From a bacterium (GTDB lineage Bacteria; Electryoneota; RPQS01), in the NCBI GenBank assembly GCA_036504735.1, contig DASXUQ010000010.1, positions 62,001-126,000 on the forward strand: a stretch of 64,000 nucleotides of DNA, given 5' to 3'. Under the pieces are notes generated by a model that did not search any database, was not told where the DNA came from, and saw only the letters and a list, made by a program, of their open reading frames with translations. A program made the translations under genes and the position numbers. Shown here one piece after another: positions 4,376 to 31,893 of this stretch (positions are counted from its first letter, which is position 1; each line of letters starts with the position of its first letter).

Positions 4376-5407
4376 ATGTCAGTAATTATTCGCTCAAGGA
4401 AGGGACGAAAGGGCGAGACCATCATCTACTTGGACATTTACCACGCGGGGAAGCGCAGGCGAATGAACCTCAAGACGAAAGACATGCGTGAGGCAAGGCG
4501 AGTAAGAGCTGAAGTAGAACAGAAATTGATGGCGGAAGGGTGGAGCAAAGAGAAGAGTTCGTCGGTCATGCTGGATGATCTGGCTCGGAACTACGTCGAA
4601 TACGCCGAAGCCACGAAAGCACCTAAAACGGCGAAGATGGACCGCGACACGCTGAGAGACTTCATGCGGGTCATCGGGAACATGAAGCTCGGTTCCGTTA
4701 CGTCAGAGCATGTCGAGAAGTTCCGGCTCGAACGGCTGAAAGAAGTCTCGCCTGTTTCGGTCAACATTGGGCTTCGACACCTCAAGGCGGCATTTAACTG
4801 GGCAGTCGAACACAAGCTGCTTAGAATCAGCCCTGCGGCCAAAGTGCGCCTGAACCGCGTTCCGAAGAACATGCATCCCCGGTTTCTCACCGAGGAAGAG
4901 ATTCAACGGTTGCGGGAGGAAATCGAGGGGGATATTGCTCTTTCCCAAGTAGTAGATGCAGCTCTTTGGACTGGAATGCGGCGGAACGAAATCGTAACGC
5001 TGCAATGGTCCGACGTGGACTTGGTCAGGAACGTGCTCACGGTGCAGAACAAGGTTGGCTTTCGGACGAAGTCCAGAAGATCGAGAAGTATCCCTATTAA
5101 TGGACCGTTGCGGGAAATGTTGCTGGCGATGAAGCCTGCCACGTCGAGACCCGACGACAACGTGTTCAGTGTTACCTATTGGACCCTAGGCAAGAAGTTC
5201 TTGCGGGCTACAAGGGCGGCGAAACTACACGGCGATGTTACCTTTCATACCCTGCGGCATACTTTTGCAAGCCATCTGGTGATGCAGGGCGTGGATCTTC
5301 GTTCAATTCAAGAGATCTTGGGTCACTTCGATGTAACTGTCACGCAAATATACACCCATTTATCCCCAGAACACCTTGCGAAGACCACAGGGAAGCTGCC
5401 TTACTGA
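4376..5407 (+). CDS. Tyrosine recombinase / site-specific integrase
   Basis: A 343-residue phage-type integrase. The ATG at 4376 has AGGAGG 13 bases upstream; the longer frame from 4301 overlaps the previous gene and is not used. An AP2-like arm-binding N-terminus (basic, residues 1-60) is followed by a SAM-like core-binding domain (about 65-160) and the catalytic domain. Catalytic residues visible: R202 (TGMRRNE), H291 and R294 (HTLRHTFAS), GH before the nucleophile, and Y326 (IYTHLS). It reads toward tRNA-Lys, whose 3' end lies 260 bases away, the classical arrangement of an element integrated into a tRNA gene. It should catalyse integration and excision of the island. Confidence 0.95.
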   Translation: MSVIIRSRKGRKGETIIYLDIYHAGKRRRMNLKTKDMREARRVRAEVEQKLMAEGWSKEKSSSVMLDDLARNYVEYAEATKAPKTAKMDRDTLRDFMRVIGNMKLGSVTSEHVEKFRLERLKEVSPVSVNIGLRHLKAAFNWAVEHKLLRISPAAKVRLNRVPKNMHPRFLTEEEIQRLREEIEGDIALSQVVDAALWTGMRRNEIVTLQWSDVDLVRNVLTVQNKVGFRTKSRRSRSIPINGPLREMLLAMKPATSRPDDNVFSVTYWTLGKKFLRATRAAKLHGDVTFHTLRHTFASHLVMQGVDLRSIQEILGHFDVTVTQIYTHLSPEHLAKTTGKLPY

Positions 5408-5408
5408 C

Positions 5409-5440
5409 AGGGAGCCCGGAATGTCCGGCTCCCTTTCTTT
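5409..5440 (+). terminator. Rho-independent terminator after the integrase
   Basis: AGGGAGCCCGGA pairs with TCCGGCTCCCT (one bulged C, ATG loop) followed by a T-rich stretch. Confidence 0.75.
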
Positions 5441-5527
5441 TGCATAGATTCCTGATGTAGAGGCTGTCCAGGCCACTGCGTCTGGTACTACTTCCAGAAC
5501 AGTGAATCAGTGGGATGAGATATTGGG

Positions 5528-5562
5528 ATGTGCGACAAAATGTGCGACAAATGAGCGACAAA
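5528..5562. repeat. Three tandem 12-base direct repeats between integrase and tRNA-Lys
   Basis: ATGTGCGACAAA occurs at 5528-5539 and 5540-5551, followed by a third copy with one change and one base shorter (TGAGCGACAAA, 5552-5562). Closely spaced direct repeats between a tyrosine recombinase gene and the attachment site are what integrase arm-type binding sites look like; that role is inferred. Confidence 0.6.
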
Positions 5563-5623
5563 ATTGGTGCAGCAACTTGCAGAAATCTACACTTACATCG
5601 GAACATCAGTTCAAAGTCAGGCC

Positions 5624-5659
5624 AAAGAAAATCCCCGTAAACCAAGTGTTTACAGGGAT
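5624..5659 (-). terminator. Terminator of tRNA-Lys
   Basis: On the minus strand ATCCCTGTAAAC pairs with GTTTACGGGGAT (one GU) and is followed by a T-rich tail; it lies just past the tRNA 3' end. Confidence 0.7.
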
Positions 5660-5665
5660 CTTAAG

Positions 5666-5741
<76 letters not shown>

Positions 5742-5843
5742 TCGTGTCGCGTGGAAACCTTAATAAAAGGCTTTTGAACAACTTTGTCAAGCCGACCCGC
5801 CAAGTCCGCCAGCGGTGGCAAAGTGTTCATGCTGCCTTACATA

Positions 5844-7166
5844 TCATAATATAATGTGATAATCATCCATTTTTTTGCGCAACGTGGGGCGGGTAATGCC
5901 CAGGACCTCACAGGCTTTGCCGAGGTTTCCTCCAACGGCGGCCAGCACGGAGATGATATGCTCCTTCTCGACCTCATCTAAGGAGCGCAAATCATGGCGG
6001 GCGGGCTCAAGCGAGGGGCTATCCTGCACGAAATCCAGATTGAGGGTATCGCCTGCGGCTCGCAGCACGGCCTGAGTCAGCACATTCTCCAGTTCGCGCA
6101 CATTGCCCGGCCAGGGGTTTTGCGTGAGCCGCTTCATCACGCGATCCGGAACGCGCGTCACATTGCGGTGCAGTTCGCGGTTGATTTTCTCCAGAAGATA
6201 ATGCACCAGGTCGGGAAGATCCTCGCGCCGTTCCCGCAGTGGCGGCAGGGTGATGCCCAGCACAGCCAGGCGGAAGTACAGATCCTCGCGGAACTGCCCG
6301 GCTTTGATCATTTCGCCCAGGCCGCGATTGGTGGCGGCAATCACCCGCGCTTCAAAGGGGATGGACGCCGTACCGCCCACGCGTTCGAAGCAGCGCTCCT
6401 GCAGCACACGCAGCAGCCGGGTTTGCAGATCGAGACTCATGTCGCCGATCTCATCGAGAAACAGCGTGCCCCTTCCTGCGACCTCGAGTTTGCCGATCTT
6501 CCGCTGATGCGCGCCGGTAAACGAGCCGCGCTCATGGCCGAACATCTCCGATTCCATCAGCGTGGAAACGATGGCCGAGCAATTGACCGCCACAAACGGC
6601 TCCCCCGGCGTGGTGTTTTCATGGATCGCCCGCGCCACCAGTTCCTTGCCTGTGCCGCTCTCACCTGTGATCAGCACATTGACGCGCGATTTGGACGCGA
6701 GCCCGATCTGCTTATGGATCTCCAGAATGGCGCGGCTCTTTCCCGCAATGCGCCCCGGTTTCCAGTCGTCGATGACCGGCGTCGCGTCCGACCGCCGCCG
6801 GGCGCGCACCTGCTCGGCGGCCTTCTGCACGATGATATCCAGCTCATCGATATCCAGCGGCTTATGGATATAGTTCAGCGCGCCGCTTTTCATAGCGGCA
6901 ATCGCGTACTCCATGTCATGATGTCCCGTGATCATGATCACCAGCGCCTGCGAACCGCTCGTGATCTGTTCATCGAGCAGCTTGGTGCCGTCGCCATCGG
7001 GCAGTTTCAGATCGAGAATCACCATGTCCGGATCATGCCGGTTCCACAGCGTCCGCCCCGAGGCAATGGTGTCCGCGCTGAACAGTTCGAAATGCTGCTC
7101 AGAAAGATGCAACTCCAGCGTCCGCCGGATAGCATCGTCGTCGTCAATGATGAGAATAGATTCCAT
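5844..7166 (-). CDS. Sigma-54-dependent response regulator, NtrC/AtoC family
   Basis: A 440-residue activator with three domains. Receiver domain (1-120) with acidic pocket IIDDDD, phospho-acceptor D52 (MVILDLKLPDGDG) and K102. AAA+ sigma-54 interaction domain (about 137-370) with Walker A GESGTGKE (168-175), loop GSFTGA (214-219, Ser in place of the commoner Ala), Walker B GTLFLDEIGD (233-242) and the arginine-finger region FREDLYFRL. Fis-type HTH at the C-terminus (about 405-437, GNLGKACEVLGITRPTL). It should bind enhancer sites and drive open-complex formation by sigma-54 RNA polymerase after phosphorylation. The likely partner kinase is at 9773-11551 on the same strand, separated by two other genes. 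Confidence 0.93.
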   Translation of the reverse strand: MESILIIDDDDAIRRTLELHLSEQHFELFSADTIASGRTLWNRHDPDMVILDLKLPDGDGTKLLDEQITSGSQALVIMITGHHDMEYAIAAMKSGALNYIHKPLDIDELDIIVQKAAEQVRARRRSDATPVIDDWKPGRIAGKSRAILEIHKQIGLASKSRVNVLITGESGTGKELVARAIHENTTPGEPFVAVNCSAIVSTLMESEMFGHERGSFTGAHQRKIGKLEVAGRGTLFLDEIGDMSLDLQTRLLRVLQERCFERVGGTASIPFEARVIAATNRGLGEMIKAGQFREDLYFRLAVLGITLPPLRERREDLPDLVHYLLEKINRELHRNVTRVPDRVMKRLTQNPWPGNVRELENVLTQAVLRAAGDTLNLDFVQDSPSLEPARHDLRSLDEVEKEHIISVLAAVGGNLGKACEVLGITRPTLRKKMDDYHIIL

Positions 7167-7217
7167 GCTCTTAAAAAATTGCTGAAAATCTGCAAGGCTG
7201 AAATTGGATGGTAGACG

Positions 7218-7233
7218 CGCGATTTATCGCGCC
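7218..7233. promoter_or_regulatory. Inverted repeat upstream of the response regulator
   Basis: GCGCGAT-TT-ATCGCGC, a perfect 7-bp inverted repeat 52 bases before the regulator's start. It could be an operator for autoregulation or a hairpin. The 482-base gap from 7167 to 7648 shows nothing else definite apart from an optional N-terminal extension of the TIR gene (ATG at 7436, no Shine-Dalgarno). Confidence 0.35.
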
Positions 7234-7648
7234 AGCTTAACAGAAAAATGTATTTTGACCAAACGAACTGGCTTACCCGCTAAAAATATTCGGCTTGGAC
7301 CATGGGCGACGTGATGGTGCAAGCGTAACGGCCACTGCAAACCGTCTTATGTTGGATGATGCGGTGGTTGTGTTGATGTTTCACTTGAAGGGGTCAGTTA
7401 GGTTCGCCTGTTTGCTCCCGGACCACTTCTAATATATGAACGAATGTACAGGAAATCAAGAGCAAAGGAAATCACAAAAACAACATCTTGCGACAAAGGA
7501 TACAGTTGAGAGGAGCGGTAGTCGCCAGCAGTTTACCTCAACGTTCGAGCCCTATTCGTCGGCACATCATGAAATGTGTTGCATGTATGACGTTCAATGG
7601 GTAAATTCCACCACAAATTCTCCCGGCATCGCTTTGCAAAGGTGGCTT

Positions 7649-9025
7649 ATGGATCAACTGTTCGCGTACGATGTCTTCATCAGTTATAGTCACTTGGACA
7701 AGGACATCGTTCACCCACTGGTGTTTCGACTAAAGCAGGATGGAGTACGCGTGTGGATGGACGATTTGGAGATTCAACCAGGCGACTCGATTCCCAGCCG
7801 TGTTCAGGAAGGCATCCAGACCTCCCGTGTGCTACTGCTTTTTATGTCGAGGAATGCTCTGGAATCCAAATACGTTGAGATGGAGCGGGCGTCTGCGCAA
7901 TTCCGGGACCCGATCAATAACGACCGCCGCTTTGTTCCGGTTCGCCTTGATAATTGCACCATCCCGGACACTCTTAGTCACTACTTGTATGTTGACTGGC
8001 GTTTGAATTCAGAAGAGCAGTACGGTAAGTTACTCGCGGCTTCCCGTTGCGCGCCCGACCTTGACTTGGATGGTGAGGAACGCGCACCGGTTGCAGAATC
8101 AGTCCTGACTGGACACAAAGGTACCGTGCTGTGCGTATCGATGACTCCAAATGGGAGATGGGCTGTTTCTGGTGGCAAGGACAGAACTGTCCGAAGTTGG
8201 GATCTTGTCCACCGTATCTCTACAGGAGTTTTGCAAGGACATGCCGATGACATCTTGTCGGTCGTGATTACGAAGGATGGGCGTCGCGCAGTATCCGGAT
8301 CGGCAGACGGAACGGTTCGCGTGTGGGATCTCGAGTCCAGGCGGTCTCAAGTATTGTATAAGGGGCAATGCCCAGTGTCATCTATAAGCGCGACGCCGAG
8401 TGGTGACCGGGTATTGACGGGTGACGCGGAAGGCATGATACGGCTATGGCATCTCGATGCAGATCCGCCGAAAGCGATGCTCAATCTCGGCCCCTGCAAA
8501 TCATGGGTGTGGACGCTCGCGATGTCGGCTGACGCTTGTTGGGCTGTGTCCGGAGGACGCGAGCGAGACGCTCACGTCTGGGATTTGAGGAAGGCCAAAC
8601 ATATGAAAGTGCTCAAAGGTCATTCGTCCTGGATATGGTCCGTCGCGTTGACTGCCAATGGGGGAACTGCTGTGACGGGATCGGCCGACCGCTTGATCCG
8701 CTGCTGGGACATGAGAACCGGGACATGCGTCAAAGCCTTGAAGGAACATACCAGTGACGTTTTGGGCGTCGCTACGACAGCCAGTGGTTCAGGCGTGGTT
8801 TCAGGGAGTGCGGACCGTACCGTTCGATTTTGGAATCCCCAAGGGAGCTTGGGTCCGAAGTCGAGAGTGGGCCATACGGCCGAAATCACGTCGGTTGCCT
8901 TGGCAGAGAGACAAGGTGCGCACTTGGCCGTAAGCGCATCGCGAGATGGAACCTTGCGCGTTTGGAATGCGAACACAACCGGAATGTCAACTCCGGATCC
9001 ACAAGGAACAGACCTTGAAAGGTGA
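7649..9025 (+). CDS. TIR domain protein with seven WD40 repeats
   Basis: A 458-residue protein. I chose the ATG at 7649 because AAAGGTGG precedes it and the TIR domain begins at once; a longer form from 7436 would add 71 residues with no recognisable domain. The TIR domain (about 5-120) opens with YDVFISYSHLDKD, carries VWMDDLEIQPGDS, and has E79 in KYVEMER at the place of the conserved TIR catalytic Glu. Seven WD40 blades follow (about 148-450; GH...V..V...P.G...VSGS.D.TVR.WD), enough for one complete propeller. TIR domains act as NAD+ hydrolases/cyclases or adaptors; the propeller would be the sensing or scaffold part. It interrupts the presumed kinase-regulator pair and is less G+C rich than they are. 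Acquired defence or signalling gene is an inference. Confidence 0.85.
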   Translation: MDQLFAYDVFISYSHLDKDIVHPLVFRLKQDGVRVWMDDLEIQPGDSIPSRVQEGIQTSRVLLLFMSRNALESKYVEMERASAQFRDPINNDRRFVPVRLDNCTIPDTLSHYLYVDWRLNSEEQYGKLLAASRCAPDLDLDGEERAPVAESVLTGHKGTVLCVSMTPNGRWAVSGGKDRTVRSWDLVHRISTGVLQGHADDILSVVITKDGRRAVSGSADGTVRVWDLESRRSQVLYKGQCPVSSISATPSGDRVLTGDAEGMIRLWHLDADPPKAMLNLGPCKSWVWTLAMSADACWAVSGGRERDAHVWDLRKAKHMKVLKGHSSWIWSVALTANGGTAVTGSADRLIRCWDMRTGTCVKALKEHTSDVLGVATTASGSGVVSGSADRTVRFWNPQGSLGPKSRVGHTAEITSVALAERQGAHLAVSASRDGTLRVWNANTTGMSTPDPQGTDLER

Positions 9026-29512: not shown

Positions 29513-29541
29513 TTGACTCTGAACACATAGATTATTATACT
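29513..29541 (+). promoter_or_regulatory. Sigma-70-type promoter of the three-gene set
   Basis: TTGACT, 17-base spacer, TATACT, about 60 bases before the ATG at 29601. Confidence 0.65.
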
Positions 29542-29600
29542 TATCCTTTGTGGTTCTCGGGTCATCTATGAACCTTACCTTGAAACACTTTGGTTGACTT

Positions 29601-30959
29601 ATGACTTTGGTACGGCCTCGCCTCACAGACTGCTTTAAGATTCCAATCACTCAAGACGAGGCCGATTTTGCTATCCCGTTCCTTGACGAGGACATTCCGC
29701 TTTGCGTTGATCCATTCTTGCTCTACAAATCACCGTCGCAGCAGGAAAACGCTTTGCATTCACTCATCGTTAATTCATTCAATCACCTTGGGCACACGTT
29801 CAGCACTGATAGCAAGGACAAAGCAATTGACCTTCTGATCAATTGCTCTGAGTGCGATGAAGCCGGTCTCGGCAACTCAAAGACTCGTCGAGGTGTACGA
29901 ATTGGACGTGATCTTGCAATAGATATTCTTTCACTTTTCAAGATCATTCCTCAAATCAAGAAGTTCGGATTTGTGCATGTGGAAGAGATTCAGCTTCTCG
30001 TTGACCAAGTCTCGCGTGATCGCATAAGTGACATTACATGTAACCTTGCGAAATCTTTCTTGGTCGATTACACGCTGTACCAGTCTACCAAGGTAGGATT
30101 ACCGGACCAAAAGGCGAAGGTGCAAGTTTATGACGACAGGACACTCAGCTTTAAGGAAGAGGAAATCAACCTTCCATATAACCCGGAATCCAACCAACCT
30201 GTAATTCTTGTCCCCAAACGATGGCTGCGGCGGCTTCCGTGGATCAACCCGGAAGAATACCGGATACGCCTGCCAGAAGATATCCGCGTGTCGAATCCGG
30301 CCCGCCTTGCGATTCTGAACTACAGTCGATTAAACTATGGTGCGGTAAAAAATTATGTTGAAGTCAAAGAACGTAGGCAGGCTGACTGCGTAAACGACCC
30401 GCTATTCGAGCCCATCCCGGTGCTGTCGGCCAAGCGCAAACTAGCGACTATTCAAAAAATACCTTCTGGAAAGGCCGGAAATGCCGACAAGATCTATGAG
30501 GACGCGATTTGTCAATTGATGGCGTCGCTACTGTATCCCCACTTAGACTTTGCAGCGGAACAGGTTCGCACGGATTCTGGCGCTCAGATTCGAGACCTTA
30601 TGTTCTACAACAATAGATCATACGATTTTCTTAGAGATATGTATGACACATACGAGTGCCGACAAGTCGTCTTCGAATTGAAGAACGTGGCCGCCTTGGA
30701 GCGCGAGCACATTAATCAGATCAATCGATACTTAGCTGACCAGTTCGGCCGTTTCGGAGTGATCGTTACCAGGAATCCGCCGCCCAAGCCGATAGTTCGA
30801 AACATCATTGATCTGTGGGCTGGTCAGCGAAAGTGTATCTTGGTTCTGGATGACTCCGATATTGCTCTCATGTGTCAAGTATTCGATAACAAGCAGAGGT
30901 TGCCCATCGAGGTCATCAAGAAGAAGCATGCTGAATTTGTCAGGGCTTGCCCCTCATAA
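29601..30959 (+). CDS. Putative PD-(D/E)XK-fold nuclease-like protein
   Basis: A 452-residue soluble protein of no named family that I recognise. The N-terminal 280 residues are alpha/beta without known motif. The C-terminal part carries a restriction-endonuclease-like pattern: acidic residue in a helix (KIYEDAICQLM), D332 (QIRDLMFYN), then E359-x-K361 in a hydrophobic strand (QVVFELKNV) and a following helix with Q/N (INQINRYLADQFG) and a strand (FGVIVTRNPP), which together are the order of core elements of a PD-(D/E)XK domain. The ATG has no clear Shine-Dalgarno but sits just behind a good promoter. It is visibly A+T-richer than its neighbours and heads a three-gene set. Nuclease activity and a defence role are inferences. 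Confidence 0.7.
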   Translation: MTLVRPRLTDCFKIPITQDEADFAIPFLDEDIPLCVDPFLLYKSPSQQENALHSLIVNSFNHLGHTFSTDSKDKAIDLLINCSECDEAGLGNSKTRRGVRIGRDLAIDILSLFKIIPQIKKFGFVHVEEIQLLVDQVSRDRISDITCNLAKSFLVDYTLYQSTKVGLPDQKAKVQVYDDRTLSFKEEEINLPYNPESNQPVILVPKRWLRRLPWINPEEYRIRLPEDIRVSNPARLAILNYSRLNYGAVKNYVEVKERRQADCVNDPLFEPIPVLSAKRKLATIQKIPSGKAGNADKIYEDAICQLMASLLYPHLDFAAEQVRTDSGAQIRDLMFYNNRSYDFLRDMYDTYECRQVVFELKNVAALEREHINQINRYLADQFGRFGVIVTRNPPPKPIVRNIIDLWAGQRKCILVLDDSDIALMCQVFDNKQRLPIEVIKKKHAEFVRACPS

Positions 30960-30971
30960 GAGGTGAACATC

Positions 30972-31349
30972 ATGAATCCGAACGATGCGGAGTGTTTCAA
31001 TGCGGCACATGCGCAACTGCATGCGCTTCACGACGAGATATCGATACTTGCCAAGAAGTCGCCTAATGACTTGATGAACAAGTTCAAGATCTCGTATGTC
31101 AATCAGGTGCTTTCTACCTGCAACGAGATCCTTGGCGCGGAGCAAAGACCATTTGTAGGCTTCACATCATTTGACGCGGACGTATTACCATCTACTAGCG
31201 ATGTCGTAATGATGCTGTCTCAGTATTGCGCTGCCATGGACAGGATTCACACGGAGAACGTCAAGTGGAACGAGACTCAGCAGAGTTGGGTGTGGTTGGT
31301 GGATGGCAAACTGTCCAAAATCAAAACTCATCGACCAAAACGGAAATGA
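30972..31349 (+). CDS. Small hypothetical protein, paralogue of the next gene
   Basis: A 125-residue protein starting at ATG 30972 with AGAGGTGA upstream, 12 bases after the nuclease-like gene. No family recognised. Its middle, FK..YVNQVLS......L.. ..F......D..LP..SDVV..L.QY..A, aligns with the following gene (LK..MINRVLS...), showing that the two are tandem paralogues. Mostly helical, charged, with a basic tail (KTHRPKRK). As one of two small partners behind a putative nuclease it may be a cofactor or antidote; this is inference from position. Confidence 0.65.
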   Translation: MNPNDAECFNAAHAQLHALHDEISILAKKSPNDLMNKFKISYVNQVLSTCNEILGAEQRPFVGFTSFDADVLPSTSDVVMMLSQYCAAMDRIHTENVKWNETQQSWVWLVDGKLSKIKTHRPKRK

Positions 31350-31350
31350 A

Positions 31351-31764
31351 ATGCCATCCAAAAAAAGCATAAAGGCGGCGCTGCCATCGAACCACGATAC
31401 CGAGAGGTTTGATGTTCTCTACCCTTTGCTGCAGCAGCAGCTTTTGGAGATTCGTGAACTGTCGAAACGGAAACAAGATGTGCAACTGAACAAGCTAAAG
31501 GTTGACATGATCAACCGTGTATTATCAGAGTTGAAAACTTTGCTGGCAGGACAGCCGATGGATGAGTTTCTCGCCCTTCTTGATTCGGAAACGCTTCCGA
31601 CTAATAGCGATGCTGTGCTAGTGCTGGCACAATTCCTGACCGCATCGCAGCAGTGTAAGAGCACTTATTACAGATTCGACGAAGAACAACACGAGTGGCG
31701 ATGGTCTACCAAAGAGAATCCAATTAGAAAGCTCGGCAACGCATGGTCACCTTCCGATGATTGA
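31351..31764 (+). CDS. Small hypothetical protein, paralogue of the previous gene
   Basis: A 137-residue protein from ATG 31351, one base past the previous stop; the frame from 31303 overlaps that gene and lacks a ribosome site. Shared pattern with the upstream paralogue: (F/L)K...(V/I)N.VLS, D...LP..SD.V..L.Q(Y/F), then W.W.... near the C-terminus (QQSWVWLVDG versus QHEWRWSTKE). N-terminal basic stretch MPSKKSIKAALP and a helical middle. Tight spacing implies translation coupling. Function unknown. A terminator at 31868 closes the set. Confidence 0.65.
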   Translation: MPSKKSIKAALPSNHDTERFDVLYPLLQQQLLEIRELSKRKQDVQLNKLKVDMINRVLSELKTLLAGQPMDEFLALLDSETLPTNSDAVLVLAQFLTASQQCKSTYYRFDEEQHEWRWSTKENPIRKLGNAWSPSDD

Positions 31765-31867
31765 CTCTTTTGAACGCTCCTACATCGGTAGAAGCTAATC
31801 TGGAAATAAACCGCTTCGATTTTTTGATTGCAGCACTGTAAGTGGGCTACCAAGATACGAACACACA

Positions 31868-31893
31868 AAAGGGCGACCGTAAGGCCGCCCTTT
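31868..31893. terminator. Bidirectional terminator
   Basis: AAAGGGCG / CGCCCTTT with an inner ACCGTAAGGC loop; A-rich before and T-rich after, between the three-gene set and the convergent lipoprotein gene. Confidence 0.7.

Follow-up and report, generated by a model that had tools for sequence, protein, structure and literature searches.

A block of low G+C content within 64,000 nucleotides of Electryoneota DNA (the window, whose numbering is used throughout) carries three closely spaced genes. Its composition and its two paralogous small genes raise the question of whether the three form a functional unit and, if so, what such a unit would do. The genes, here A, B1 and B2, are adjacent on the plus strand and together span 29601-31764: A (29601-30959) encodes 452 residues; B1 (30972-31349) encodes 125 residues from its ATG; and B2 (31351-31764) encodes 137 residues. 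A gap of 12 bp separates A from B1, and a single base pair separates B1 from B2. The sequence AGAGGTG, which resembles a ribosome-binding site, lies 6 nt before the B1 ATG, and an alternative GTG start at 30963 would give a B1 of 128 residues. The mechanically derived B2 reading frame begins at 31303; the ATG at 31351 is preferred because homologous B2 proteins start there.

The block (29513-31893) has a G+C content of 47.2%, as compared to a window mean of 57.6%. This makes it the lowest-G+C block of the window, with values as low found in only 0.16% of equal-sized windows. Third-position G+C is also low, at 54-60% in the block genes as compared to 66-77% in seven other genes of the window. 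The original prediction of a low-G+C block is therefore borne out, and the two measures together make the block look acquired. The trio is flanked by genes for an H+-pyrophosphatase, secreted proteins and an ABC transporter; these flanks contain no defence genes, and no methyltransferase gene lies beside the trio in the window. In an empty-site comparison, genomes of the same family keep the pyrophosphatase, and neither the trio nor the downstream genes of the window follow it. The proposal that the block has its own promoter and terminator stands only in part. A promoter-like site (TTGACT-17-TATACT, 10/12 matches in a consensus scan) does exist on the plus strand at 29513-29541, 59 nt upstream of A, but such sites are at chance level in this region (3 seen versus 2.7 expected in shuffles), making it suggestive only. 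Similarly, the scan finds a real hairpin with an 11-bp stem after B2 (31868-31893), but it is terminator-like only on the minus strand and is weak on the plus strand, where it has no T-run. Elsewhere in the window, the plus strand at 7436-9025 encodes a 529-residue protein in which a TIR domain (residues 80-200; TIR_2, E 2.2e-27) is followed by a WD40 beta-propeller; this is possibly a TIR-WD40 immune-type protein, and the G+C content is lower in this part of the window.

The trio had been thought to match no system that could be named. This is incorrect, as all three proteins match models of PDC-M36 in PADLOC-DB v2.0.0. A matches PDC-M36A (PDLC04597) over residues 1-452 with an E-value of 3.6e-213 and 706 bits, the model having 457 positions. 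The small proteins each match a PDC-M36B model: PDLC04599 for B1 (E 2.2e-42) and PDLC04600 for B2 (E 2.3e-35). The locus has the arrangement that defines membership, with a full-length M36A homologue and M36B homologues directly downstream on the same strand. The same search relates B1 to BrxL and B2 to BrxA at E-values of about 0.01, which are taken as chance. Pfam gives a single match for A, PDDEXK_3, which is below threshold (E 0.0034; 18.2 versus a cut-off of 22 bits), and no match for B1 or B2; NCBIfam gives nothing significant for any of the three.

A guilt-by-embedding screen is the source of the PDC candidates, which are incorporated in PADLOC-DB v2.0.0 (PMC12988326; PMC10855318) and are mostly described as lacking validation (PMC12988326). 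Two of them, PDC-M63AB and PDC-S04, have been tested in their native host, with no defence seen (PMC12409345). The catalogue entry for PDC-M36 carries no description of function, and a literature search covering openly available main texts turned up neither a paper naming it nor a test of it. PDC-M36 is accordingly a computationally predicted, catalogued defence candidate, and the window copy is a new, intact member with added anatomy, not a new kind of system.

A, B1 and B2 are a real unit. An intact A is followed by B1 and then B2 in 11/11 loci where the following sequence is readable: the window, L004, L010, L011, L014, L021-L024, L026 and L035, the last retaining only the C-terminal end of A. 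A further locus, L025, ends inside A. Rare joint occurrence would have counted against the original prediction; the opposite is found. The 11 loci cover bacterial chromosomes, plasmids and prophage-like contigs. In most, the B2 start lies at or a few bases from the B1 stop, with ATGA-type overlaps in several. Full-length relatives of A, 49-67% identical to one another, come from two genomes, one of the same phylum (L014) and one from the Spirochaetia (L004); from plasmids carried by Leptolyngbya boryana (L010) and Methylobacterium phyllosphaerae (L011); and from IMG/VR contigs (L021-L024 and L026).

The trio is also a rare, sporadic and mobile gene set. Among 386 sampled genomes there are two intact copies and one broken copy, and the B models match only where A or a remnant of A is present (the window genome, G037 and, as a remnant, G132). 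In the plasmid collection, B is found only in three records with full-length A, two of which are Leptolyngbya boryana strains. No homologues were found in phage records. Two copies are broken: in G132 (L015), A stops near residue 105 and is followed by reading frames that look transposase-like from sequence alone, and then by a B2 remnant; in Falsihalocynthiibacter (L012), a fragment of A lies beside a PaeR7I restriction-modification system.

By its sequence, the C-terminal domain of A (30453-30956, plus strand) is PD-(D/E)XK-like. The nuclease-like core D332...E359-x-K361 originally read in this 452-residue protein is present, and in the alignment E300, D332, E359, K361, Q373 and Y377 are invariant in 11/11 homologues. 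PDDEXK_3 is matched by 10 of the 11, weakly (best E 7e-5), with the G037 copy scoring above the Pfam cut-off. When a C-domain profile that includes three added distant members is compared by hhalign with 11 PDDEXK_3 proteins, the probability is 89.7% (E 1.9e-6, score 42.8). None of 100 column-shuffled controls reaches this score, the best being 19.5, under half of it, and the reversed control scores 13.5. An earlier comparison using full-length A alone gave 11%; inclusion of the distant C-domain members raised this figure. A and PDDEXK_3 have identical motif spacing (E-x-K-x-V-x2-L-x3-H-x2-Q-x3-Y-L), and PDDEXK_3 (PF13366, the GxxExxY proteins) is the nearest Pfam family to this domain. Differences are also evident: the window A falls below the Pfam cut-off; it carries an additional N-terminal domain, and its D332-E359 stretch is longer; and no GxxExxY signature is seen in it. 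A is probably a DNA-cutting enzyme.

Structure prediction adds little for A. The AlphaFold2 model made with eight homologues is too poor for an alpha-beta-beta-beta-alpha-beta core to be read from it (pLDDT 52, pTM 0.35), and a Foldseek search of this model against the PDB returns low-probability matches only, the top ones being to the Nt.BspD6I nickase; these are not counted. Sequence searches of the PDB with A and with its C-domain find nothing significant.

The distant members of the C-domain differ at the active site. A conjugative Citrobacter freundii plasmid (NZ_OQ821188.1), which also carries a beta-lactamase gene, encodes a 280-residue hypothetical protein with this domain and no Pfam family (L033:3936-4778, plus strand). 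Here, D-x-K occupies the position of E359-x-K361, a substitution that the PD-(D/E)XK superfamily allows. Two further members have degenerate sites: an Mrr_cat fusion (L019) and a 464-residue fusion ordered TIR, Mrr_cat and PDC-M36A C-domain (L016:3459-4853, minus strand). In the latter, E-x-N replaces E-x-K, which suggests that the domain may act there as a sensor.

The N-terminal domain of A (about residues 1-230; 29601-30290, plus strand) has a separate distribution. It is common to proteins of about 490 residues from Roseomonas, Paenarthrobacter, Sinorhizobium, Janthinobacterium and others, and the relatives checked (L013, L017 and L018) carry a different PD-(D/E)XK-like sequence at the C-terminus. 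Invariant or nearly invariant positions in the alignment include D31, D37-P-F39, E84, H126-x-E128 and D140-x-I-S-D144, and the domain also carries an LG-S motif. A sequence search of the PDB finds no relative of the domain. Because this domain persists when the nuclease end is replaced, it is likely to sense or regulate, and the arrangement fits a sensor plus effector design.

The surroundings of these N-domain proteins are varied. The L018 relative sits behind the Mod and Res genes of a type III restriction-modification system, and the L070 relative behind genes for a methyltransferase, a helicase and a GIY-YIG protein. At L017:9772-12308, the N-domain gene is directly followed by one for a Fic protein (PADLOC SoFic, 1.3e-34), with a ResIII helicase gene upstream. 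On a Corynebacterium glyciniphilum plasmid (L073:3813-4712 and 4927-6643), a 300-residue N-domain protein adjoins macro-domain and DUF4433 genes, by annotation a DarT/DarG-like pair. A Calothrix plasmid (AP025020.1) encodes a 695-residue protein with the N-domain (L034:4935-7022). The C-terminus of this protein (NFGTNHGKQTGNEHN) and the N-terminus of the adjacent 131-residue protein at 7062-7457 (NFGENRGTQIGIQHN) have a common motif, which we take to resemble paired amyloid-signalling motifs.

The small proteins B1 and B2 were originally described as tandem paralogues, and this holds: BLASTP aligns them at 29.5% identity with an E-value of about 1e-13. In a tree of 22 B proteins, a B1 clade is separated from a B2 clade by a long branch with support of 1.0, and each locus contributes one protein to each. 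The duplication is thus ancient and took place before the system spread. Whereas PADLOC uses a single name for both small proteins, they resolve here into two ancient orthologous groups. As both copies are kept in 11/11 loci, they are unlikely to be interchangeable. The AlphaFold2 model of B1 is of high confidence (pLDDT 94.6) and predicts three helices and a C-terminal beta hairpin. This predicted fold has no significant match in the PDB (best E 0.52) or BFVD (best E 0.32), and the B profiles find nothing significant in the PDB by sequence. B1 and B2 diverge faster than A, with median identities of 0.42 and 0.36 as compared to 0.54. Co-divergence is clear between A and B2 (r 0.59, p 0.0003), weak between A and B1 (r 0.39, p 0.04) and not significant between B1 and B2 (r 0.23, p 0.088).

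Together, these data lead us to propose, with a probability of roughly 60%, that the block represents a PDC-M36 operon, intact and gained by horizontal transfer, that encodes a gated nuclease. The proposed sequence of events involves: expression of A, B1 and B2 from a single transcript; binding of B1 and B2 to A as non-interchangeable partner subunits; restraint or aiming of the nuclease by these partners; and release of A when phage infection or the entry of foreign or plasmid DNA triggers the complex. A would combine an N-terminal regulatory or sensing domain with a C-terminal PD-(D/E)XK DNase domain. Once triggered, it would cut DNA, either that of the phage or that of the host as a form of abortive infection, and so could protect against phage.

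A different assignment of roles would make the trio a toxin-antitoxin or addiction module. In this case A would be a DNase toxin and B1 and B2 its antitoxins; the module would mainly maintain its carrier plasmid or prophage, and any phage protection would be secondary. The presence of the trio on plasmids and prophage-like contigs is consistent with this, as are the small partners, closely linked at gaps of 1-12 bp, such partners being a feature of type II systems. The faster divergence of the partners fits an antitoxin or a sensor. Other features of the trio are atypical of such modules. It would be unusual for there to be two different conserved partners, neither of them with a recognisable DNA-binding antitoxin domain; A is first in order and, with 452 residues and a large conserved N-terminal domain, is unlike typical type II toxins; and B1 is predicted to be ordered rather than partly disordered. 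Searches of Pfam and NCBIfam also find no significant match of A, B1 or B2 to a known toxin or antitoxin family. We therefore regard an addiction module as unlikely, while still the most credible competitor of the gated nuclease.

The genes near the trio in relatives bear on a second alternative. In the Spirochaetia genome (L004), the trio precedes genes for a KAP ATPase (PDC-S20) and for a type III methyltransferase, two small reading frames that look toxin-antitoxin-like from their sequence alone, and a gene for a Res-like helicase protein. At L022, the trio follows a BpuJI-type restriction-modification set and a NERD protein. Phage-type genes accompany other copies: an adjacent integrase gene at L024; terminase and minor-tail genes at L026; and a nearby tail gene at L021. 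The expectation that the trio lies beside known defence genes is thus realised in some relatives (restriction-modification genes at L004, L022 and L012), but not in the window, and L010 and L014 have no clear defence neighbours. On the plasmids of Leptolyngbya (L010:10163-13377) and Methylobacterium (L011:10928-13368), same-strand umuC/DUF4113-type genes precede the trio, an arrangement that possibly marks an insertion hotspot or a link to the SOS response.

Adjacency to type II or type III restriction-modification genes, together with the PD-(D/E)XK core of A, would suit a stand-alone restriction system. Here, B1 and B2 would recognise the target and A would cut unmodified or specially modified foreign DNA with no induced state, either in a type IV-like manner or with a methyltransferase encoded next door. 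The conserved unit contains no methyltransferase in any of the 11 loci, the restriction-modification genes of L004, L022 and L012 being mere neighbours, and this makes classical restriction-modification unlikely. Likewise, in none of the three proteins do Pfam and NCBIfam recognise a domain for target recognition or for reading modified bases, and stand-alone restriction is accordingly considered improbable. Least probable is that the trio supplies a nuclease and accessory subunits for the DNA metabolism or repair of plasmids and prophages with no role in defence: several carriers are such elements and umuC/DUF4113-type genes precede two copies, but the sporadic distribution, the different element types, the broken copies and the restriction-modification neighbours fit defence better.

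The gated nuclease can be placed beside two known systems. Shedu is a single-gene system in which SduA (DUF4263/SduA_C, PF14082) has a PD-(D/E)XK-type C-terminal nuclease behind an N-terminal domain. A has a similar layout; the trio differs in having B1 and B2, and A has no match to PF14082 at E-values up to 10. In Hachiman, the HamA nuclease is restrained by the adjacently encoded HamB (PMC12278908). The likeness to the trio is one of analogy only, in that an effector nuclease is thought to be held by the product of a neighbouring gene. Unlike Hachiman, the trio has no helicase or ATPase, and PADLOC finds no HamA or HamB match. The unit as a whole has neither a helicase nor a recognised ATPase domain, which argues against motor-driven sensing of the Hachiman type. 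A bolder proposal is that PDC-M36 constitutes a class of nuclease defence with a new mechanism, in which a previously undescribed N-terminal sensor common to several nuclease-tipped proteins is gated by a heterodimer of B1 and B2 paralogues, with a fold unmatched in the PDB and with no helicase, ATPase, nucleotide signal or methyltransferase. This is offered tentatively, as a doubtful extension of the gated-nuclease model.

For the family, the analysis replaces a catalogue listing that is silent on function with a three-subunit model that can be tested, in which catalytic residues are named and two distinct partners are told apart. The model also brings in a conserved N-terminal domain found in combination with other nuclease ends, as well as the compact copies present on plasmids and prophage-like contigs. 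If PDC-M36 were to fail in tests, this would itself help to gauge guilt-by-embedding predictions, the screen behind the PDC candidates reportedly being that of Payne et al. 2024 (doi 10.1101/2024.01.29.577857). If A is indeed held by B1 and B2, PDC-M36 would be a small nuclease defence that works with neither a motor nor a second messenger.
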